From the NCBI GenBank assembly GCA_913058265.1, contig CAJXPQ010000001.1, positions 310,001-374,000 of the forward strand: a DNA stretch of 64,000 nt. The letters are read 5' to 3'. Source of the DNA: an uncultured Oligoflexia bacterium. GTDB taxonomy: Bacteria; Bdellovibrionota; Bacteriovoracia; Bacteriovoracales; Bacteriovoracaceae. The number at the start of each line of letters is the position of its first letter. Position 1 is the stretch's first letter. Below, piece after piece: positions 4,701 through 50,236 of this stretch. The position numbers and the translations under genes were made by a program. The notes under the pieces were generated by a model, which saw only the letters and a program-made list of their open reading frames with translations, was not told the DNA's origin and ran no database searches.

Positions 4701-6239
4701 ATGAAATTAGAAGTTTTTCTTTTTCTCTTTGCCTTAGGTCTTGCCTTTCTTTCAGGTAATATTAGCTATTTTATACATGACGACGAAACAGTAGATCTGA
4801 ATAATATCGATGAAATTCAAAAGCTACACTATGAGCTGCAAGAGTCAATGTCTCCATTTGTTAGAATTGACCTAAATAATAATTATTCTACGCCGGCCCA
4901 TTTTGAACTTTTAAAACCACTTGATTACCGCATACAAAAAAACAAACAACTCCTACTAGATTCCTCACAATGTATTAAATCTAAGATAAATCAGATTAGC
5001 TCTAAGTATGTTGATAAAGAAGCTCTTTGGCTTGCCTACTTATGTGACCAAGTTCAAATGCTCCCATCATCCTACTTCAAGTCACCACCATTTATGCATC
5101 CGTCAGGTCAATCTTATGCTTTTATGAATTATCGTTTGCAAACAGAGAGGCGTGCAAGAATTAATTGGCTTGAAAACTACTCACGTTTTATGCATTTATC
5201 AGAACTAAGCAAACTCAAGTGGAGCCAAAACAAAGAACAACGTTTTTTAAATAATCAATCTCCGGAACTAATTGGTAAGATTCTGCAAGACGAGAAACTC
5301 ATACTCACTAAACACTATTACTATATAAACACAGGTCACTTAAAATACTACGTACAAACAAAAGAAAAAGCGGTTCGCTTTTTTGAACGAGCAAGATATA
5401 TTGTCACGACCAATTTTAAGGATTGCTCACTAAAAGTCGCAACAACATGTTGGTCAAGACAGCCCCATAACTTAAAAAGTATTTTAACCCAGTCTTCCTA
5501 TATGATCTTTGCTGTAACCATTGTCATTCTTTTCATTACCGCCAAGGGTCTTTTCTCAAGATTCAGAATTAGACGATACGAGGAAGAACGAAAAAAACAT
5601 GCTCTAAGACTTTTGACTCATGAACTTAGAACTCCTATTGCCTCACTACTCTTACAAGTTGATCAACTAAATGAGCGCCTTAGCGAACTCCCCGAGGATA
5701 TGGTCGATGATATCATGCGAATAGAGGGACAGATTTACAGACTCAAGCATCTGGCCGATAGGAGTCAAAGTTACCTGCAAACTAACAATAAGGATTTTCT
5801 TAATCTTAATATTGAAAAGATTCCTTCCATGACGGCTTACCTTGATTCAATCCGCACGGAGTATAAGGATCTTGAAATAAATATTAATATCAATGAAGAC
5901 TTCAGCGTCTTAACAGATCCCTACTGGATAAAAATTGTTATTATGAATATCATTGAGAATGCAAAAAGATACGGAAAAGCTCCTATTCAAATTTCAGCGA
6001 AGAGGAAAGAGACTGAATGCATTGAGATTAATATTACTGATCAAGGAGAAATACCTTTTAGTAATTTAAAATCTCTTTTAAAAAACAAACACCAAAATTC
6101 CAAGGGCCTGGGCCTGGGAATGATTATAGTCACTAGAATTATTAAAGAGCTTGGCGGCAAGCTTACTCTTGAAAACTTTCCCACTACTTTTAAAATCGAA
6201 CTTAAAGAGGTACACAATGACCAAAATATTATTAGTTGA
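4701..6239 (+). CDS. Sensor histidine kinase
   Basis: 512 aa membrane kinase. It has one N-terminal membrane segment (residues ~4-22), a ~245-residue region without a recognised fold that is presumably periplasmic, a second membrane segment (YMIFAVTIVILFITAKGLF, ~271-289), a short linker, then the HisKA domain with H-box THELRTP (His307), and a HATPase domain with N-box NIIENAKRYG and G2 box GLGLGMII. The G1 box is weak (ITDQGEIPF), so the ATP lid is atypical. The gene for its probable partner, an OmpR-type regulator, starts inside the last 23 bases of this gene, a standard two-component arrangement. The signal sensed is unknown. No ribosome binding site is visible before the ATG. Confidence 0.9.
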   Translation: MKLEVFLFLFALGLAFLSGNISYFIHDDETVDLNNIDEIQKLHYELQESMSPFVRIDLNNNYSTPAHFELLKPLDYRIQKNKQLLLDSSQCIKSKINQISSKYVDKEALWLAYLCDQVQMLPSSYFKSPPFMHPSGQSYAFMNYRLQTERRARINWLENYSRFMHLSELSKLKWSQNKEQRFLNNQSPELIGKILQDEKLILTKHYYYINTGHLKYYVQTKEKAVRFFERARYIVTTNFKDCSLKVATTCWSRQPHNLKSILTQSSYMIFAVTIVILFITAKGLFSRFRIRRYEEERKKHALRLLTHELRTPIASLLLQVDQLNERLSELPEDMVDDIMRIEGQIYRLKHLADRSQSYLQTNNKDFLNLNIEKIPSMTAYLDSIRTEYKDLEINININEDFSVLTDPYWIKIVIMNIIENAKRYGKAPIQISAKRKETECIEINITDQGEIPFSNLKSLLKNKHQNSKGLGLGMIIVTRIIKELGGKLTLENFPTTFKIELKEVHNDQNIIS

Positions 6240-39579: not shown

Positions 39580-39693
39580 AGAAATATTGTACAGATTCTA
39601 TACAGGATGTGAAACACAAAACATTACCAGACTATATTTATCAGGAGCTTGCATTGTAATTCAAACTTGAGAGAATGATTGAAGGAGAATTAT

Positions 39694-40461
39694 ATGCAAA
39701 CAAAAGAAATAGTTAATGATCTAAATAAACTACTCAATATTTACGACTATAAAGATTACTGTCCAAATGGTCTGCAAATTGAAGGAAAAAAAGAGATTAC
39801 TAAAATCGCTTTTGCTGTATCTGCCACTAAGTACTCGGTAGAAAAAACAGTTGAGCTTGGAGCAGATATGCTCATCGTACATCACGGTTTATTTTGGAAG
39901 TTTCACGGTCCAAAAACCTTAACTGGATCTTTCTACAATAGAGTCGCACCTCTTATTAAAAATGATATCAATCTTGTTGGATATCATTTGCCTCTTGATG
40001 CTCACCTAGAAGTAGGAAATGCCAGAGGTATCGCAGATAAAATAGGTTTATCAGATCTAAAAGAATTTGGAGACCATAAAGGAATGCCAACTGGTGTTCG
40101 AGGAAAATTAAAAACGCCGATCAGTGCGAGTGAACTAAAAGTACAACTTAAAGATATTTTAAATCGTGAAATCATTCACTCAGCTCCAGATAATAAAGTT
40201 ATAAAAAGTATTGGTATCATAACTGGAGGAGCAAACTCAGACTGGCGTGAATGTCTGAAGTATAACCTTGATGCCTATATTACAGGTGAGATTTCTGAGC
40301 ATGATTGGCACGAAGCTCAAGAAGAAGATATTCACTTCTATGCTGGTGGACATAATGCAACTGAGCAATTTGGCGTACAAAACCTTATGAAGTATATGTA
40401 TGAAAAGTATACTGATGCCAATATAGAGTATTTCTATATTCCAAGTGAAAATCCGGCTTAA
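39694..40461 (+). CDS. Nif3-like dinuclear metal centre protein
   Basis: 255 aa. Metal ligands are visible in LIVHHGLFWKF, in GYHLPLDAHLEVGNA and in FYAGGHNATEQFGVQNL, the standard Nif3/YbgI set that binds two metal ions in a hexameric toroid. The biochemical role is debated (a GTP cyclohydrolase I type 2 label is common but poorly supported). I chose ATG 39694, with AAGGAG upstream, over TTG 39679. Confidence 0.9.
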   Translation: MQTKEIVNDLNKLLNIYDYKDYCPNGLQIEGKKEITKIAFAVSATKYSVEKTVELGADMLIVHHGLFWKFHGPKTLTGSFYNRVAPLIKNDINLVGYHLPLDAHLEVGNARGIADKIGLSDLKEFGDHKGMPTGVRGKLKTPISASELKVQLKDILNREIIHSAPDNKVIKSIGIITGGANSDWRECLKYNLDAYITGEISEHDWHEAQEEDIHFYAGGHNATEQFGVQNLMKYMYEKYTDANIEYFYIPSENPA

Positions 40462-40489: not shown

Positions 40490-41875
40490 CTATGGAATAC
40501 AGAACATTTGCGTTTGCGTACAACCCATTACTGCTGACTGATCCCCACAGGCAGACCCTTCTGGATACGGACATATATTAGGTCCTCCGCCACCGGTTTG
40601 GCCCTGGCCCATCTCATTTCCAATTCCAGCGCCAATTGCTTGCCATGTACAGTTTCCATTTGGTGAACCATCCAAAGACCTACACAGAGATGCAACGACT
40701 TTAGCTTTTGAACAACTCGCGTCTCCACCTGCCGCTTCACAATTCCATAAATAATTTGTAACGCTATCGTTAATATTATTTAGTGTTCCAATTTCACATG
40801 AATTATTTATAGTATTGTCGCATCGACCAAAAGGCAAAATAGGCTTCACTTCTGAACATGAGACATCACCTCCGCCAAATGTTCCTAAACAACTCCACAA
40901 ATACTCTGTAGCTGAATCAGCAATATTATTTAAAATTCCACTTGAACAAATATTATTTGAAGCGCCACAAGTTCCAGAGACTGGGGTCGGAGGTGCTCCT
41001 GCAAAACGACAAGCAGCATTTGTTCCAGTTCCCGTTCCCCGGCAAGTCCAAAGCCTAGTTGGTAAGGCATCAGGAAGATCTTCTAAAGTTCCAGATAAAC
41101 AAGAGTTTTCTAATGCTCCACATGTTCCGTTTGAATTGACATAAGATGGCGCGGCAGGAGGCGTAAAGCACGTTAAGTTACCATTTACATCATACCCCTG
41201 AAAATAAATTCCAGCATCACAAGACTTTCCTGAGTCAACAACATTACACTTACCACTTCCCCAACTTAACCAATTATGTGCATCACAGAAACTCTTTTTG
41301 GCCATTGCCATCACATTAGAGTAGTCACAAATAATATCACCATCAACCTCAAAGCACATTTTCTCCAAGAGACCAGAAGCAATATCCTCAATACCTTTAT
41401 TACAATCAACAATCTTTCCTGTGTCCACATTCACATTCGGATAAAAATAAATGGTCCTAGTAATAGCCTGAATAGCATTCGCTTTTTTAGCAAGTTCAAA
41501 CTCAACTTTAAATTCAGCTCTTCCACTATTAACGTTGTATTGTCCAATATACATTCTCTTAATACGGTAAGTTCCAGATAAAATTGGCTCACCTGCTTCA
41601 AATAAGACAGTTCCGGTTTGAGTTTCTAGTTGGAGGATATTCTCTTCAATATTTACAGATTTTGTTTCAAGGTTTTGAGAACAGGACCTAGGTTCTTGTA
41701 AAACAGCATTAATTGAGACTAAAGCTTTAGCTAAGTCAATTGTCCCCTTAGCTCCGGTAACCGATTGATTCTGAATTTTACTTAGATTCATGATCCCAAC
41801 AATAACAACGCCTAAAATAGCGGTAGAAGTTATGATTTCGACAAGTGAGAATCCTTTATTATTTTTTAGCGACAT
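40490..41875 (-). CDS. Prepilin-like protein C, with 3 Cys-rich repeats
   Basis: 461 aa. The prepilin peptidase site is KG|FSLVE with Glu5, then a hydrophobic helix. A pilin-like globular part (residues ~30-215) is followed by three ~48-residue repeats of the pattern C-x5-10-C-x-[GS]-x7-8-D-x6-W-x-C-x-G-x4-C (each containing LWTC, LWSC or LWNC), and a Cys-rich tail (NGNCTW, PNICPYP, CTQTQMFC). It overlaps gene B by 10 bases, so coupled translation is likely. The repeats resemble secreted or surface Cys-rich repeats, probably disulfide-bonded. Likely a minor pilin with an adhesive tail. Confidence 0.8.
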   Translation of the reverse strand: MSLKNNKGFSLVEIITSTAILGVVIVGIMNLSKIQNQSVTGAKGTIDLAKALVSINAVLQEPRSCSQNLETKSVNIEENILQLETQTGTVLFEAGEPILSGTYRIKRMYIGQYNVNSGRAEFKVEFELAKKANAIQAITRTIYFYPNVNVDTGKIVDCNKGIEDIASGLLEKMCFEVDGDIICDYSNVMAMAKKSFCDAHNWLSWGSGKCNVVDSGKSCDAGIYFQGYDVNGNLTCFTPPAAPSYVNSNGTCGALENSCLSGTLEDLPDALPTRLWTCRGTGTGTNAACRFAGAPPTPVSGTCGASNNICSSGILNNIADSATEYLWSCLGTFGGGDVSCSEVKPILPFGRCDNTINNSCEIGTLNNINDSVTNYLWNCEAAGGDASCSKAKVVASLCRSLDGSPNGNCTWQAIGAGIGNEMGQGQTGGGGPNICPYPEGSACGDQSAVMGCTQTQMFCIP

Positions 41876-42669
41876 AGTATGGCCCCAACAGTAGAGAACC
41901 CATAAGCATATTCATTTGCTCCAGAACAACTTTCCGTAGAGTGAGCTTTATGGATATCACAAAACTCTGTTGAGAGATTAAAGTTGCCAGGTTCACCTGT
42001 AATATCATTACATATAGAAATTTTTATTCTTTTCTCAACTTCAATAATTGACTGAGCACAATTCATTCCAACAAAGTCTGATCCAAAAGTATTTTGACAA
42101 ATTCTCTCCATGATAATTTCATACATGGCAGCTCTGTCGAGGTTACAAGCTACAACAGCACCGGATTCAAGTCCGACAGGAACCATAATTTGTCTCTTAA
42201 ATATTTTTGATTTATCCGAAAATTCGTGGGCATTGTCTCTTGCTATAATTTCAAGCTCTACAGGTAAAATTCCGGCTTCACTCGTATTATCTAGTGCAAC
42301 AAGTGGCAGTGTGACTAAGCTTAAAATTTTGACCTTTCCAAATTCTTTGCCGGCATTATAAATTGTCTTTCCAAACTTAGTCTCCATAACATTCGTTACA
42401 GGATTTAGCTCTTTGATTGCGCTTCTAATCTCTACTTGAGATCCAGTGGCTAAACCAAGAAGTTGTTTACAGCCACCACTAGACAATAGATAAGATGAAA
42501 TAGAAGACTCAAGGCTTAATACCTCAGAGGATTTTTCAAAGTTTTTCATACCTCGATTAGTTGTTTCAAGTAACTTCATTGTTCCCAATGATAAAACACC
42601 AATTAGCCCGACCGCTATAACGATCTCCATCAATGACATGCCTCTAGAATTTAAAAATTTTTTAATCAT
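41866..42669 (-). CDS. Prepilin-like protein B
   Basis: 267 aa with a prepilin site RG|MSLME (Glu5 present) and an N-terminal hydrophobic helix, like GspI/GspJ or PilV/PilW minor pilins. The C-terminal half has conserved Cys (NCAQS, ICNDITG, FCDIHK, ESCSG, ILCR), so it should be disulfide-bonded. It starts 5 bases after gene A ends and overlaps C by 10 bases. It aligns with B' along its full length. Confidence 0.82.
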   Translation of the reverse strand: MIKKFLNSRGMSLMEIVIAVGLIGVLSLGTMKLLETTNRGMKNFEKSSEVLSLESSISSYLLSSGGCKQLLGLATGSQVEIRSAIKELNPVTNVMETKFGKTIYNAGKEFGKVKILSLVTLPLVALDNTSEAGILPVELEIIARDNAHEFSDKSKIFKRQIMVPVGLESGAVVACNLDRAAMYEIIMERICQNTFGSDFVGMNCAQSIIEVEKRIKISICNDITGEPGNFNLSTEFCDIHKAHSTESCSGANEYAYGFSTVGAILCR

Positions 42670-42674
42670 ATTAT

Positions 42675-44840
42675 CTACTTATTATGTACTAAGAAGCCAT
42701 TTGCAAAATAATCACGGCTTCCATCTAGTTCAAAGTTAAATACATCTTCATCAGTATCAGTTGCACCAATAGTTAACACTTCTTCATATGAATTATCCTT
42801 AACTATAAAATCACCGACCTGAAGTATTGATATATGCAGACTTGGATTAATCTTCATTGCAAGCTTAGGATTAAATGCACTCCAGCCTTTTAGAGTCATA
42901 AATGGATGCCCTTCAGTCACAAAATAATCACTACCATTTATGGAATACTTTAAACCTCTATGTGGGCTTGGCTTAAGTTTTAATACTTTATTAATATTTC
43001 CATTTGAACCAATAAGTGTATCACCAACTTTGACATCTTCGATACTTTTAAAGTTTCCGTTGGCCATAGTGATCATTGTTCCAGCAATAAAACATTGAGT
43101 ATAACTACTTCCACATTTAACAGCTTTGTTTGAAGGACACTCTTTGCCACCTCCAGATGCAGGCCTACTAATAGATGATAAGCGACAGCTCTTATATCTA
43201 GTATGAGTTCCGGGTATACCTGCCAATCTATCGTCTGAGACTTTACAAGGACCACAAGAATTATATACACCGATACAATTCACAGGATTTACAGGAATAG
43301 CAGGACAACCTGCAGTTGAGCTACTAGCAGGCCTCCCACCAGCACAAAAGCCCGGAAAAGGACATGTAACAGATCTTGTTTTCGTACCAGAGCGACAAGC
43401 AACCCATGCACCAACATTCCAAGTCCAACTACATGTATTTGATCCAGTCCATTTAATTATTCCTCGATCAACCATACAGTCTGCTCGACAACGGCCACCT
43501 GAGGCACCAGCATTATTACAAGCAAAAGAAGTCGTGTCACCTAATGTACCATTAGGCCATCTACAACCAGGTCCATAAACACCACCATAACAAGTACAAT
43601 CCCTTGTTCCAGTTACTGTGCGAGTTAAACCATCACAACTTCTCGTTTGGGTAAAGCTAGATCCAGCACAAATAGTGTTTGTACTTGGAGACCATACAAT
43701 AGGCTGAGTACCCGTAGCGGTGCGAGTAGTACCATCACATGTTTTTATTTGAGTAAAATTAGTACCAGAACAAACAGTATTAACTATAGGAGTCCAAACA
43801 ATTGGAGCTGTCCCCGTATTAGTTCTTGTATTTCCGCAACCATTACTCTGAGTAAAGCTTGCACCTAAACAAGTCGATGCTGGGGATGCTCCCCAAGGAC
43901 AACAGGTATCGTTTATAAGAGTTCCCCTTGGACACTCTCTGTCACAATGATCAGTTCCTAGATCAAGACCAAAGCAAACATTCGTCGTACTTGGGCATGG
44001 CCTTGGAACACAGCTACAAATTAATTCACCAGAGGTTGTAAAGCCATCAACAACCCAGTTCTGATGTGCAGTCCCTCTTAGATCTGTAAGATCTCCCCTC
44101 CTACAAGTTTTTCCTTTAAAAGGGTGAACACAACTCTTATTTTGTAGTGGACTACATAGATCTTTTTCAACGTTAAGAGAGACATTTTCTGAAATTCCCA
44201 TACACATACCTGTAGCAGGGTCCATAGTTCCCTTGAAATCTCTACAAGCTTCGGCGTATGCAGTAAGTGCATTATCTCCAAGATTACTCATACAAAGCTC
44301 AACATTATTATCTCTTGTGATTAGCATTAGCTCAATAAACTCTTTCTTTGTATGCATTGAGAAACTTGTATTTTCAGAATTATTTCTATAAGGCTTAAGT
44401 GTAACTTCTAACTGAGCTTTAGATAATTTCGTTCCACTAGCAGGTGTGAAACCAAGTAACTTTAAACCTTTAATAACATAGCCACCGTTATGAATATATC
44501 TGGATGGAGCAGAGTTTATTTCAGCTTCAGTAGTAGAATATGTAACAATTCTATACATTGGCAATCCAACTTGATCTTTAATACCTTGAGCAAATGACAT
44601 ACCTGTTGTTAAAGCTCCATTTTGAGCTAAAGTATTTTTACAAACAACGGGATTTTTAAAAATATTTTTTAAATCACCAACAAACTGGCCTATCTGAGCA
44701 CGTTGTGTGAGGGAGCTATTTTCTTTCGTTTGAGTTTGGCTCATTTTCATAACACCAGCCCCCACAGCTAGCACTGCCGCGCCAATCATCATGACTTGGA
44801 GCATTGAAGCTCCGGTCGAATTCTTTATGAGTTTTATCAT
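42675..44840 (-). CDS. Large prepilin-like protein A with C-terminal Hint domain
   Basis: 721 aa. The N-terminal prepilin-like signal is TG|ASMLQ, with Gln at position 5 in place of Glu, as in GspK-type tip pseudopilins lacking Glu5. A pilin-like domain follows (to ~residue 230), then a Cys-rich part with three ~29-residue repeats ([FY]TQ...C...TRT.TGT.PIVW.P), a TSP1-like segment (WNVGAWVACRSGTKTRSVTC) and a complete Hint domain, residues 583-721 (43094-42678). This has Cys583 in TQCFIAGT, VGD, TEGHPF with the block-B His, and a C-terminal YFANGFLVHNK. Only Lys follows the final HN, so there is no real C-extein: expected chemistry is thioester formation and cleavage, not splicing. The A' paralogue lacks the Hint domain. 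Confidence 0.85.
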   Translation of the reverse strand: MIKLIKNSTGASMLQVMMIGAAVLAVGAGVMKMSQTQTKENSSLTQRAQIGQFVGDLKNIFKNPVVCKNTLAQNGALTTGMSFAQGIKDQVGLPMYRIVTYSTTEAEINSAPSRYIHNGGYVIKGLKLLGFTPASGTKLSKAQLEVTLKPYRNNSENTSFSMHTKKEFIELMLITRDNNVELCMSNLGDNALTAYAEACRDFKGTMDPATGMCMGISENVSLNVEKDLCSPLQNKSCVHPFKGKTCRRGDLTDLRGTAHQNWVVDGFTTSGELICSCVPRPCPSTTNVCFGLDLGTDHCDRECPRGTLINDTCCPWGASPASTCLGASFTQSNGCGNTRTNTGTAPIVWTPIVNTVCSGTNFTQIKTCDGTTRTATGTQPIVWSPSTNTICAGSSFTQTRSCDGLTRTVTGTRDCTCYGGVYGPGCRWPNGTLGDTTSFACNNAGASGGRCRADCMVDRGIIKWTGSNTCSWTWNVGAWVACRSGTKTRSVTCPFPGFCAGGRPASSSTAGCPAIPVNPVNCIGVYNSCGPCKVSDDRLAGIPGTHTRYKSCRLSSISRPASGGGKECPSNKAVKCGSSYTQCFIAGTMITMANGNFKSIEDVKVGDTLIGSNGNINKVLKLKPSPHRGLKYSINGSDYFVTEGHPFMTLKGWSAFNPKLAMKINPSLHISILQVGDFIVKDNSYEEVLTIGATDTDEDVFNFELDGSRDYFANGFLVHNK

Positions 44841-44900
44841 AACTAATAGTAAAAATTTATAAAGAATATGAAAAGGTATAAATCAGGCTAATTGGCTTAT

Positions 44901-46820
44901 TTATATCGCATAATTGTTAGGAACAGTACTGGGAGTTAAGTTTGAAGGTCCAGGTGGTGGATTAGGCGTTGAAGGCAGAGGTTCAGAGCATGTTTTACTT
45001 GCTCCCCCATTTGAGCCAACACACTCCCATTTATACTCTGTTGTCGTATCTGCGATATCACGAAAGCTTCCAGCTAAACACTTATTTACTGAAGAGTCAC
45101 AGGATCCATCAATTTTAGGTGACGAGCTTGACCCACACCACGCGCTGAGTTCATGGCAATAAAACTTACTCGAATAAAGTCCATTTGGAGAAGCTTTATT
45201 ATCACACCATGAACAATTTGAAGTAATTCCTCTAACGGTTCCATCGCACACTTTACTAGGTTGCATTCGACCTGGGGTTGTCTGAGACCCAGTTGAGTAA
45301 GAACACACTCCAGGGTAGGAAGTACCACCGCATGTTGGCGAGATAAATTTATTAGTCTCAATTGCTCTCCAACTATATAAGGCTGATTTTTGGGCACACG
45401 TTGGGTAAGTAGTTAAGCATAATGCTTCTGTCGCGAAACTATCTAAGCAAACTGTTTCTTTTGTAAGTGAACAGCTTTCATGTCCACCTCCGCCAGACCC
45501 CTTACAGTTCCACATAAAATTTGAATCTGTATCTGCGACATTCTCTAAATTTCCTGATGCACATGTATTCTCAGTAATTGTAGGAGTCACACACTTCCCC
45601 TGAACTGGTGCCGACTTAGAAACAGAGCAACTTACATCATTACCAGCTGGACTCCCATTACAAACCCATAAGTAATTCTCAGTTGAGTCGCCTGTATCAT
45701 TAAGAGCACCTGCAATACAATCATTGTTAACAATACCACAAAGGGGAATGACATTCGCTAAAGGCTTTTTTTCACTGCAAGACATATCAGCACCACCATT
45801 TACACCAAGACAATTCCATCGATAATGAGTGATTGTTCCTGCAATTGAAGAGTCACTAATTCCCGATAAGCAGTCACTTGCTTTTTCTGGCCGGGAGCAC
45901 TCACCATCTATGACTTTGGATCCAATTGATTTTTTACAAGCTATATTAGATCCAGAACCAGATCCATTACAATTCCATTTAAACTGCCCCGAAGAATCAG
46001 GTAAATCTTGTAAGTCCCCCGTTAAACAAGAATTTGCATCTACTCCACACTTACCAGAGTAGTTTTCATCACTGGTCTTTGTTGGTTTAAGCCCACAATC
46101 TAATTCTCCGTGACTATTATAACCAAGAAAAAATAAGGGCTTCCCTCCAGAGAATCCACAAATTTTTCCAGAGTCCAAAACCTTACACTTTTTATTAACA
46201 TCATCCCAGCCGATCCAAGGATTCTCTTTGCAGAATCTCTCCTTAGCCTCTTTTAGAATATTGATATAAGTACATGTCCCAGCAGGGTCAACATCAAAGC
46301 ACATTTTCTTCAATAGACCCTCGGCCCTATTAGCTACGCCTTTAAGACAACTTACTATGTTGCCTGATTCGACCTTAGGATAAAAATAAAGAGTCTTTAT
46401 CATTCCCTTAGTTAAGTTAGCTTGCTTAACAAGTTCAAAATGAACTTTAAACTCTGCCCGACCAGTTAAAACATCATACTTTCCCACCCACATTTTCAAA
46501 ACCTTATAAGCGCCATTTCCAAATGTTTCATTCTTTGAAAATAGATTTACAGTTCCGCTCGATCCAACAAGGTGGTGAATTTCTTCATCAAGGTTTACAG
46601 GTGTGCCATTAAAGTTTTGAGAACATGATAATGGCTCTACTAGTAGAGAGTTTATAGAAATTAAAGCACTTAATAAGTCCCCTGCTCCCTTACTTGATGT
46701 AGTAGAAACCTGCTGCAGTTTTCCTATATTTAGCACGCCAATGACAACGACGCCCAATAATCCCATTGTGACCATAACTTCAACTAAGGAGAATCCTGAT
46801 TTTTTCCAACCTATCTGCAT
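44901..46820 (-). CDS. Prepilin-like protein C', with 5 Cys-rich repeats
   Basis: 639 aa, paralogue of the 461-aa C protein. Prepilin site SG|FSLVE with Glu5. The pilin-like part aligns with C (LKKMCFDV, CKGV, LDSGKICGF). It has five repeats of the same ~48-residue Cys/Trp module (for example YSGKCGVDANSCLTG and YKWECVGSNGGASKTCS), a separate Cys-rich insert (residues ~455-560) and a Pro/Ser-rich tail (PLPSTPNPPPGPSNLTPS). The difference from C is mostly extra repeats plus this insert. Start overlaps B' by 10 bases. Confidence 0.8.
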   Translation of the reverse strand: MQIGWKKSGFSLVEVMVTMGLLGVVVIGVLNIGKLQQVSTTSSKGAGDLLSALISINSLLVEPLSCSQNFNGTPVNLDEEIHHLVGSSGTVNLFSKNETFGNGAYKVLKMWVGKYDVLTGRAEFKVHFELVKQANLTKGMIKTLYFYPKVESGNIVSCLKGVANRAEGLLKKMCFDVDPAGTCTYINILKEAKERFCKENPWIGWDDVNKKCKVLDSGKICGFSGGKPLFFLGYNSHGELDCGLKPTKTSDENYSGKCGVDANSCLTGDLQDLPDSSGQFKWNCNGSGSGSNIACKKSIGSKVIDGECSRPEKASDCLSGISDSSIAGTITHYRWNCLGVNGGADMSCSEKKPLANVIPLCGIVNNDCIAGALNDTGDSTENYLWVCNGSPAGNDVSCSVSKSAPVQGKCVTPTITENTCASGNLENVADTDSNFMWNCKGSGGGGHESCSLTKETVCLDSFATEALCLTTYPTCAQKSALYSWRAIETNKFISPTCGGTSYPGVCSYSTGSQTTPGRMQPSKVCDGTVRGITSNCSWCDNKASPNGLYSSKFYCHELSAWCGSSSSPKIDGSCDSSVNKCLAGSFRDIADTTTEYKWECVGSNGGASKTCSEPLPSTPNPPPGPSNLTPSTVPNNYAI

Positions 46821-47608
46821 AGTAACCGTCCATTAGCATCAAAGCCATATGCTAATTCAGAAGCATCTGGACAACCTTCTCCAACGTGAGCGTTATCAAT
46901 ATGACAGTACTCTCCATTGAAGTGACCGCCTTCACCAGTGATATCATCACAAATGGAGCTTTTAATTTTCTTCTCGACCTCAAGTACAGCCTGAGTACAG
47001 TCAATACCATCAATGTTTATACCAAGAACCTCTTCGCATATTTTTTTCGTTATTGTATCGTATAAAATACTTGTTTCCAGACTACAATCTTGAATGACAC
47101 CGTTATCCATAGTAACGCCAAGGAGAACGACTCGCTTAAAAACACGAGAATCTGCACTGAAAGCATTTGTTTTATCTCTAGCGGTCATTACTATCTCTAC
47201 TGGCATCATTCCAACTTTCTGATCGACATCTGTACTCTCTAGATTCAGAAGTCTTATATGATCAATTCTAATTTTTCCAATTTCTAAACCAGCAGTAAAA
47301 AGAACACGTCCATATTTTTGTTTTATGGATCTTGTAGCGGGATCATACTCTTGGGTAACTCCTTTAATCTCAATATCCTCTCCTGCAGCCTTACCAACAA
47401 GCTGTTTGCAACCAGCATTACTAATAAGGAAACTTTTAATTTTTGTATGTACTGATAAGACTTCTGAAGATTTTTCGAAGTCCTTATTTGAAACATTTAA
47501 TCCCTGCATAAGCCTCATACTTCCCAAAGCAATAAGACCGACCAAACCGACCGCCACAACGATCTCCATCAAACTCATACCTCTTTCATTTGAAGTCATC
47601 ATGGACAT
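46811..47608 (-). CDS. Prepilin-like protein B'
   Basis: 265 aa, full-length paralogue of B. Prepilin site RG|MSLME, Glu5 present. Shared with B: EKSSEVLS, GCKQL, MPVEIVMTARD (LPVELEIIARD in B) and the C-terminal ICDDITGEGG region. Overlaps A' and C' by 10 bases each. Confidence 0.82.
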   Translation of the reverse strand: MSMMTSNERGMSLMEIVVAVGLVGLIALGSMRLMQGLNVSNKDFEKSSEVLSVHTKIKSFLISNAGCKQLVGKAAGEDIEIKGVTQEYDPATRSIKQKYGRVLFTAGLEIGKIRIDHIRLLNLESTDVDQKVGMMPVEIVMTARDKTNAFSADSRVFKRVVLLGVTMDNGVIQDCSLETSILYDTITKKICEEVLGINIDGIDCTQAVLEVEKKIKSSICDDITGEGGHFNGEYCHIDNAHVGEGCPDASELAYGFDANGRLLCR

Positions 47609-49146
47609 GACTCCGAGGAGCTAGGTTGAGCTCCAGCGCAACCTGCATAAAATCCACAAGAAACTCTTCTCGTCTTTTTACCATCATTACAAGAGCCCCA
47701 TGGTCCTGCCGTCCATGAAAACTTACAAGAATTATTACCACTCCAAACAACTCGCCCACTTTTGTAAACACAAGAAGCCCGACATCTTCCAGAAACAACT
47801 TTTGGATGAGAACAAACAGAGCTTGTTCTTCCTCCAAGTTTTCCTTGCGGCCACCAACATCCTGTTCCATAAGGGCCACCATAACAAGTACAGTCGAGAG
47901 TTCCTTTAACTACTCTTGTAGCACCATCACAAGTTCTGGTCTGGACCATCGATCGCCCAGCACATACTGTGTTTGTAGCAGGTCCCCAGATAATAGGAGC
48001 TGTGCCTCGAGCTGTTCGCTTGGACTGATCACATGTTTTTGTTTGCTGAAAAGAAACTCCTAAACACTGTGAGGATTGGGCGGGCACCCAATTTATAGGC
48101 ATGATTCCGGTATTAAGTCTTGTGTCTCCACATTTTACACCTCTTCTTTCATTACTTTGAGTATAGTTTGTACCAGCACAAACATTACTAGGTCTAGGGG
48201 CCCAACTACAACAAGAATCATTAGTTAGAGTTCCTACAGGACAATCATTAAAGCATTTATCGTCTCCTAGAGACTCTCCAAAACATACGTTTGTAGTTGA
48301 TGGACAAGGCTGAGGAACACATTCACAGTTTACCTTTCCATTAGTACCAAAGCTATCTACAAACCAGTTTCCATGATTAGCACCATCCTTGCCTAAATTA
48401 GAGTTACACGATTTATTTTTATAAGGATGTTCGCATGTAACAGTCCCATCTGAACTACACATTTGCGAGGTTGTATTATCAATAATTTTTGTAGCGACTC
48501 CAGAGCATATTCCAGTGGTTGTATCAAAATACCCACCGAGCCCAATACAAACATCAATAAGAGCATCACGGGATTTGTCGCCCTCATCGCTTAAACAAAG
48601 CTCAATGACATTATCTCTAGTCACTAGCAAAATAGGAATCATCTCTTTTTTTGTATAAGAAAAAAGCGTCCTCTGCTTAGAGTTGGCCAGCTCGAAAGGC
48701 TTTATCGATACTTCGAGTATAGCTTGAGTAAAGCTCACTCCTGCAGATTCTTGATAATTAGTAAGTCTTATATCATGAATCTCATTTAATCCATTATATT
48801 GGTAAGTTGATCTATTATACTGAAGGTCGGTTTGTGAGGTCGAACTTGTCAAAACTTTATATATTGTCTGACCGCTAGGATTGAGAATACCTTTATCTAG
48901 AGTCGCATCGGAAGATAAAGAGCTTAATTGACCAAGTGTACTGGTACAGACCGTCGGATCACTTAGAGCGGTCTGAATATCTTTGACCAAAGATTGGACT
49001 TCTTGTTTTTGTAATACAGTGCGATTTTCTAGGCTTTGATTTTGAGTCACTTTTACCAAACCACCAGCAGCTGCAACTACGAGGGATCCCATCAATAGCA
49101 TTTGAAGAATGGAAGCTCCACGTGAGCTTTTAAGAAGGTTTTTCAT
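47599..49146 (-). CDS. Large prepilin-like protein A' without Hint domain
   Basis: 515 aa. Prepilin-like signal RG|ASILQ (Gln5). The pilin-like part and Cys-rich repeats align with A (CPSTTNVCFG, CTCYGG.YG.GC, and the TSP1-like WTAGPWGSCNDGKKTRRVSC), but the protein ends ...SSESCP, where A goes on to a second Cys-rich segment and the Hint domain. It is the first gene of its cassette, 43 bases after the hppD stop. Probably the tip or large minor pilin of one of the two pili or pseudopili. Confidence 0.82.
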   Translation of the reverse strand: MKNLLKSSRGASILQMLLMGSLVVAAAGGLVKVTQNQSLENRTVLQKQEVQSLVKDIQTALSDPTVCTSTLGQLSSLSSDATLDKGILNPSGQTIYKVLTSSTSQTDLQYNRSTYQYNGLNEIHDIRLTNYQESAGVSFTQAILEVSIKPFELANSKQRTLFSYTKKEMIPILLVTRDNVIELCLSDEGDKSRDALIDVCIGLGGYFDTTTGICSGVATKIIDNTTSQMCSSDGTVTCEHPYKNKSCNSNLGKDGANHGNWFVDSFGTNGKVNCECVPQPCPSTTNVCFGESLGDDKCFNDCPVGTLTNDSCCSWAPRPSNVCAGTNYTQSNERRGVKCGDTRLNTGIMPINWVPAQSSQCLGVSFQQTKTCDQSKRTARGTAPIIWGPATNTVCAGRSMVQTRTCDGATRVVKGTLDCTCYGGPYGTGCWWPQGKLGGRTSSVCSHPKVVSGRCRASCVYKSGRVVWSGNNSCKFSWTAGPWGSCNDGKKTRRVSCGFYAGCAGAQPSSSESCP

Positions 49147-49189: not shown

Positions 49190-50236
49190 TTACTTCAGAT
49201 AGCCTCGTTTCTCTTGATCTCGCTCAATTGATCTAAAAAGTGCCCCAAAGTTGCCCTCACCAAAGGCATGATGGTTCTTTCTTTGAATAATTTCAAAAAA
49301 GATCGGCCCAATCACGTTCTTAGTAAAGATCTGTAGCAGGTAGCCCTCGTCATCACCATCAATGAGTATCTGAAGTTCTTGCAGTCTCTTATGATCCTCA
49401 GAAACGTTGGGAACTCTATCGAAAACTTCTTGGTAGTACTCATTATCAATATCAAGAGTATCAACTTGAGTGGAACTTAATGAGCTTATTGATTTAATCA
49501 TATCACTAGTATGGAAAGCAATATGCTGTACACCCGCACCTTTATATTCATCAAGGTACTCGTTGATCTGAGATTTTGCTTCTTTGGCCTCATTAATAGG
49601 GATACAGAAGCTTCCATCTGGTGATCTTAAAGCAAAAGAAGTTAGACCTGTTTTAACTCCGCGGATATCAAAATATTTAATTTCTGTGAAACCAAAAATA
49701 TCTTTATAAAAATTAGACCATTTCTCCATAGTTCCATGTTCTACATTATTCGTAAGGTGATCGATAAATTCAAATCCTAATGATTTTGTTTCATCTGGAT
49801 TATCAACTTTTTCGAATCCCATTTGCTCATATAGATTTGCTTCAGAAAATTTATCAATGAAATAGATATTAGAATCACCGATACCTTTAATGGTTGGAAT
49901 ATCCTTATCACCAAGTTTAAAATCAATTTTTGTTGAAGCTATTGCGCCTCGTTCAACTCCTGAACTTAAAGCAAAGTCTGCATCATCAACTCTCCATCCC
50001 ATAGAACTTACACAGGGACCATGATTTTGATAAAAGTCAGTACCAAATGATGCTGGCTCATAGTTAAGTAAAAAATTAATATCATTTTGTCTGTAGAGAT
50101 CAATTTTTTTTGTTTTATGTCTCATGATTCGTGAAAAACCAAATGCAATAAAGAGTTCTCGCATTGCCTTAGGGTCTTCAGCACTAAACTCTGTAAATTC
50201 GATTCCACGTAAATTTAAATGATTCTCAGTAGTCAT
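49190..50236 (-). CDS. hppD: 4-hydroxyphenylpyruvate dioxygenase
   Basis: 348 aa Fe(II) enzyme converting 4-hydroxyphenylpyruvate to homogentisate in tyrosine breakdown. The three iron ligands are visible: the His in FIDHLTNNVEHG, the His in GVQHIAFHTSDM and the Glu in FFEIIQRKNHHAFG, with a matching C-terminal helix (GNFGALFRSIERDQEKRG). Length is normal. It lies 9 bases after mltA, so the two may be cotranscribed. No homogentisate dioxygenase gene is in the window. Confidence 0.93.
   Translation of the reverse strand: MTTENHLNLRGIEFTEFSAEDPKAMRELFIAFGFSRIMRHKTKKIDLYRQNDINFLLNYEPASFGTDFYQNHGPCVSSMGWRVDDADFALSSGVERGAIASTKIDFKLGDKDIPTIKGIGDSNIYFIDKFSEANLYEQMGFEKVDNPDETKSLGFEFIDHLTNNVEHGTMEKWSNFYKDIFGFTEIKYFDIRGVKTGLTSFALRSPDGSFCIPINEAKEAKSQINEYLDEYKGAGVQHIAFHTSDMIKSISSLSSTQVDTLDIDNEYYQEVFDRVPNVSEDHKRLQELQILIDGDDEGYLLQIFTKNVIGPIFFEIIQRKNHHAFGEGNFGALFRSIERDQEKRGYLK

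Follow-up and report, generated by a model that had tools for sequence, protein, structure and literature searches.

The window, i.e., the whole 64,000-nucleotide stretch of DNA that was analysed, comes from a marine relative of predatory bacteria. Its minus strand carries, head to tail, two three-gene sets, A1-B1-C1 then A2-B2-C2 (Table 1). The six open reading frames are located where the first-pass annotation had placed them, in the same order and on the same strand. The pairwise homology that it had claimed is borne out by BLASTP: identity is 43% for A1/A2 (520 columns, E 2e-160), 45% for B1/B2 (261 columns, E 1e-78) and 44% for C1/C2 (397 columns, E 1e-106), i.e., a sequence similarity far above chance in each pair. 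An assembly artefact as the source of the second cassette is ruled out by the 43-45% identity between copies.

The B/C overlap had been described as an identical run of 10 bases. Its length is 10 nt in both cassettes, but its letters differ (ATGCAGATAG vs. ATGTCGCTAA). A1 and B1 also overlap by 10 nt, thus B1 overlaps A1 and C1 to the same extent; A2 and B2 do not overlap and are separated by 5 nt. The two cassettes are not equal copies: A2 corresponds to A1 plus about 205 extra residues ending in a Hint domain, which is absent from A1 and had been missed, and C1 has more Cys/Trp modules than C2. The distal parts of A1 and A2 contain a TSP1-like motif, WxxGxWxxCxxGxKxRxVxC, found by pattern matching and not matched by Pfam. 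Promoter and terminator scans gave matches at chance level, and the PHROGs search gave one weak match of unknown function.

Table 1. The two cassettes, the Hint domain and the bordering genes (positions in the window).
Feature	Position	Strand	Description
Upstream neighbour, HPPD-like	49190-50236	-	By sequence inspection; borders the site in 4/4 genomes of the genus
A1	47599-49146	-	515 aa; E5-less large prepilin, leader MKNLLKSSRG|ASILQ; distal half Cys-rich; without Hint; no Pfam match
B1	46811-47608	-	265 aa; minor pilin with Glu+5, leader SNERG|MSLMEIVVAVG; N_methyl sub-threshold
C1	44901-46820	-	639 aa; minor pilin with Glu+5; pilin part + 5 Cys/Trp modules; N_methyl above cut-off
A2	42675-44840	-	721 aa; A1 paralogue, leader MIKLIKNSTG|ASMLQ; Hint/BIL domain at C-terminus
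Hint/BIL domain of A2 (aa 583-721)	42678-43094	-	Cys1, TEGH, C-terminal HN then one Lys
B2	41866-42669	-	267 aa; B1 paralogue, leader FLNSRG|MSLMEIVIAVG; N_methyl sub-threshold
C2	40490-41875	-	461 aa; C1 paralogue; pilin part + 3 Cys/Trp modules; N_methyl above cut-off
Downstream neighbour, Nif3-like	39679-40461	+	By sequence inspection; other border of the variable site

All six products have a class III prepilin N-terminus, in agreement with the earlier claim: a short basic leader, Gly and a hydrophobic helix of about 20 residues. By their leaders they are candidate substrates of a prepilin peptidase, and a peptidase A24 (prepilin peptidase) gene is found in the genome. The Pfam N_methyl model matches the C and B proteins to different degrees (Table 1) and is absent from A1 and A2; no Pfam pilin match was found in A. 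Residue +5 is Gln in A and Glu in B and C, i.e., a large subunit devoid of Glu5 stands beside Glu5-bearing partners, as is expected of a tip complex. GspK and PilX are likewise devoid of Glu5, and GspK caps its own complex (PMC7541494, PMC7248040). Among the curated minor-pilin models, no match to the GspK/PilX, GspJ/PilW or GspI/PilV families is above cut-off; weak N-terminal matches to GspJ, PilV, GspH and ComGE are far below the cut-offs. The correspondence A = K/X, B = J/W and C = I/V is an analogy drawn from size, Glu5 and gene order; the likeness of B to GspJ and of C to GspI is a weak sequence similarity. A1 is probably the tip-most subunit. Distant homology links B to C (E 9e-13) and also B to the Y1/Z2 proteins, which are encoded in two further prepilin clusters of the same genome.

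Residues 583-721 of A2 match Hom_end_hint with 34.6 bits (cut-off 32.1) and align weakly with solved inteins. BIL domains of Bdellovibrio bacteriovorus were reportedly treated by Dori-Bachash in 2009. Cys1, Thr60, His63, His137 and Asn138 are invariant in an alignment of eight Hints. A2 has the marks of type A BIL domains (Cys1, TxxH, C-terminal HN, no +1 nucleophile): one Lys is all that comes after its His-Asn, which leaves it without a +1 nucleophile and with hardly any C-extein. Judged by these residues, the A2 Hint is an intact type A BIL, a type in which, by the definition of PMC4031507, cleavage products dominate. The A proteins of the congener G001 have no Hint either. No Hint remnant is possible at A1, since A1 ends where the extension of A2 starts and its stop overlaps B1.

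A profile built from the aligned Hints has matches in 39 of 368 Bdellovibrionota genomes. In the loci examined, the N-terminus is complete for 45 distinct Hint ORFs, and a prepilin N-terminus is present in 20 of them (16 genomes, 11 genera, 8 families); this count was corrected by eye, the automatic prepilin rule having wrongly accepted 4 lipoproteins and missed 3 prepilins. Applied to neutral ORFs from three loci of one genus, the same rule gave 1 of 53, itself a false positive. The prepilin excess among Hint ORFs has a Fisher p of 1.4e-7, with related loci treated as independent, and a binomial value by genus of 6e-13. For 12 of the 20 prepilin-Hints, another prepilin gene lies at 2.5 kb or less (e.g., L122, L119, L120, L125, L113, L130). 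Glu5, counted by eye in these twelve clusters, is missing from 9 of the 12 Hint pilins vs. 7 of the 21 neighbours (p 0.025); by this count, the pilin of a cluster that carries the Hint tends to be an E5-less one. A comparison of Glu5 loss with all prepilins (OR 6.9, p 3e-4) was set aside as biased, since many of these were fetched with an E5-bearing profile. The three-gene layout with an E5-less partner recurs in L122 and, in the genome of the window, in L047 (E5-less gene in the middle) and L049 (two E5 genes, one E5-less gene and a fragment resembling A).

In the tree, prepilin Hints are intermixed with those of other secreted proteins, so the fusion to prepilins has probably occurred several times. 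The Hint closest to that of A2 (48%) belongs to a prepilin of genome G172. A 1335-aa prepilin of G176 (L125 3980-7984) contains two Hint domains, both internal; since further sequence follows them, splicing instead of terminal cleavage is possible in that protein. Prepilins also lie beside secreted Hint proteins in G196 (L136 2083-3075, 3084-4049, 4199-7378) and, similarly, in L135, L138 and L148. The secreted neighbours of the L136 type have about 1030-1165 aa and end in a Hint without the His-Asn end, and the C-terminal sequence of the prepilins of L135, L136 and L138 resembles S74 chaperones. L136-type loci are a different tip-like cluster. By title and abstract, the matches of a literature search for Hint domain and pilin together concern other subjects, and the prepilin-Hint fusion appears undescribed within the literature searched.

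The genome (3.23 Mb, 25 contigs) contains a T4aP locus on contig C6, with a prepilin peptidase, two PilA, PilC and two T2SSE-type ATPases; PilM is also present. A T2SS locus on contig C3 (L055) has a secretin, an ATPase and its own prepilin (pseudopilin) genes, thus the cassettes are not simply T2SS minor pseudopilins. Besides T2SS, T4aP is the sole assembly locus confirmed in the genome, Flp and TadE giving weak matches below the curated cut-offs. No PF05567 (PilY1) match was found in the genome, by a search of unproved sensitivity since its control genomes did not include a well-known PilY1 bacterium. In L049, a 97-aa A-type prepilin fragment (5468-5761) lies at the opposite end of the cassette from the full-length copy, which points to tandem duplication and decay. 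Three single large prepilin-like proteins of the same genome (L050 7543-9147, L051 5890-7341, L052 6981-8216) have a C-terminal Peptidase_S74 match (Pfam E 2e-14 to 6e-17). They are reminiscent of the MAT fibres of Bdellovibrio (PMC10769870), some of which likewise end in S74, but after a signal peptide, whereas L050-L052 have a prepilin-like start.

Between the same two neighbours, the congener G001 has B-C-A-A'; in the congeners G002 and G003 the two neighbours adjoin and the site is empty. The comparison of synteny proposed with the first-pass annotation thus finds the flanks shared but not the content. The locus is unstable, i.e., duplicated, rearranged or absent among congeners, and the cassette is dispensable for the genus since two of the three congeners have none at the site. 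The A' gene of G001 (L056 14163-17030) is a tandem copy of A, with 94% identity in the pilin part and 70% overall; it has no ATG/GTG/TTG start ahead of the leader and is therefore possibly silent. B has a single relative in a collection of 84,980 GTDB genomes, from which records close to that of the window may be missing. Compared with G001, identity is 30-39% for A, B and C and 50-75% for the neighbouring genes; the tip proteins thus diverge faster. One profile-profile comparison relates the Cys/Trp module of C (window) to that of A (G001) with prob 96.8 and E 2.7e-10, both being Cys/Trp-rich. C1 gave weak matches to a profile built from the modules of G001 (E 0.008-0.7), and a profile of the C modules run for the G001 proteins did not find them. 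A transfer of the module between the C proteins of the window and the A proteins of G001 is a lead.

In raw identity, each of A, B and C is closer to its counterpart in the other cassette than to G001; in the trees, A, B and C each fall together with their G001 gene in a supported clade. The AU test gives p 0.745, 0.339 and 0.232 for the joining orders with A+B+C concatenated, and rejects no topology for A, B or C taken singly. A duplication after the split from G001, as read from identity only, is thus weakened, trees and AU tests fitting a duplication before or after it. The trees of A, B and C do not contradict the shared duplication history expected earlier, but the AU tests do not fix its timing relative to this split. 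One duplication of the whole A-B-C cassette is the simplest reading, since the order is the same and identity is even across A, B and C. We hold it somewhat unlikely that the cassettes are separate acquisitions, or that gene conversion has kept them similar: G001 grouped with one cassette is not rejected by the AU tests and two congeners have nothing at the site, but common order and strand, even identity and the closeness of each pair in raw identity speak for duplication.

The passive survival of the A2 Hint, as the leftover of a mobile intein-like element without any tip role, is unlikely. It would fit a domain that moves, as the intermixed tree implies, and the A proteins without Hint (A1 and those of G001); however, the catalytic Cys, Thr-x-x-His and His-Asn are intact, and a prepilin fusion in 11 genera is not expected of a decaying passenger. 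It is quite unlikely that the cassettes form the minor-pilin tips of a Tad/Flp (Kil-like) pilus instead of T4aP. Kil Tips are indeed three-gene minor-pilin clusters, with four paralogous sets in Myxococcus and analogues in Bdellovibrio (PMC12075869), and Flp-like matches exist in the genome. These are weak, though, and below the curated cut-offs as are those of TadE, while the cassette leaders are of the GFxxxE class, N_methyl exceeds its cut-off in C1 and C2, and the confirmed assembly locus besides T2SS is that of T4aP. We find it distinctly improbable that the six proteins are T2SS-like pseudopilins, or free surface adhesins that use a prepilin-like helix as their anchor and play no part in a tip. 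The family includes many single large prepilin-like ORFs, several with S74 ends, that need not join a filament, yet the three-gene layout with an E5-less partner recurs (L047, L049, L122) and T2SS has pseudopilin genes of its own.

With moderate confidence, we favour a reading in which a type IVa-like pilus has two alternative tip (priming) complexes, putatively derived from one duplicated A-B-C minor-pilin cassette, the Hint of A2 being predicted to cleave itself. This tip-complex reading is the best one because A is E5-less, a T4aP locus is present, the T2SS set is separate and no PilY1 is detectable. The association of E5-less A with E5-bearing B and C, the distal Cys-rich regions and the further prepilin clusters of the genome also speak for it. 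What we infer, i.e., complex formation, tip position, exchangeability, autoprocessing and target binding, would run as follows. Each A-B-C set would prime the pilus and form its tip, A being the outermost subunit; A, as the E5-less tip-most subunit, would display its Cys-rich adhesive region, and B and C would be the GspJ/GspI (PilW/PilV)-like partners coupling A to the filament. Two sets in one operon-like block would provide two exchangeable tips. The A2 Hint would form a thioester at Cys583 and, with cyclisation of Asn720, cut itself off, either periplasmically or once on the surface; cleavage would either expose the mature tip or pass the new C-terminus to a nucleophile. Two tip complexes diversified after duplication had already been proposed: the minor-pilin tip cassettes and the diverged copies agree with that proposal, which had overlooked the Hint of A2, the repeated occurrence of prepilin-Hint proteins across the phylum and the variability of the site.

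By analogy, and as a long shot, prepilin-Hint proteins could be a widespread self-processing pilus-tip class in Bdellovibrionota, a thioester formed by the Hint at the far end of the tip-most pilin being passed to a target amine or hydroxyl so as to join the tip covalently to another pilin or to the surface in contact with it. If true, this thioester transfer would be a Gram-negative counterpart of thioester adhesins. The wider question on which the locus bears is prey recognition and holding by predatory and related bacteria. Pilin mutants of B. bacteriovorus still adhere to prey, which points to adhesins not yet known (PMC5430801). Variable tip cassettes and the recurrent fusion of an autoprocessing domain offer defined genes and active-site residues for study. 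Of the two features, the fusion of prepilin and Hint is the less expected; cassette duplication as such has a precedent, and Myxococcus provides experimental evidence of one pilus served by several minor-pilin sets.

In M. xanthus, three minor-pilin clusters serve one T4aP (PMC7541494). These minor-pilin/PilY1 clusters 1-3 have, as here, several paralogous sets and an E5-less subunit near the tip (PMC7541494). They consist of four minor pilins plus PilY1, whereas the cassettes have three genes and no PilY1 was found; the large Cys-rich A, the tandem duplication and the Hint domain are on the side of the window. The Kil Tips (KilLMN), four and interchangeable in Myxococcus, share with the cassettes the three-gene minor-pilin clusters, the several variable copies and the distal modular domains. 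They belong to a Tad pilus and have no Hint domain in the accessible part of PMC12075869, whereas the window cassettes putatively belong to a type IVa-like pilus. A surface thioester can bind a target covalently in the thioester-domain adhesins of Gram-positive bacteria (PMC4450167); the likeness to Hint pilins is one of analogy, the domains being unrelated and covalent binding by Hint pilins hypothetical. The GspI-GspJ-GspK tip of the T2SS pseudopilus has, as here, three subunits with a large E5-less capping one, but the cassettes lie outside the T2SS operon, A has Cys-rich regions and A2 a Hint. Type A BIL domains share with the A2 Hint the signature of the Hint fold and the His-Asn C-terminus without a downstream Cys/Ser/Thr nucleophile; the A2 Hint differs from them by its place, since it terminates an E5-less prepilin that belongs to a putative tip cassette.
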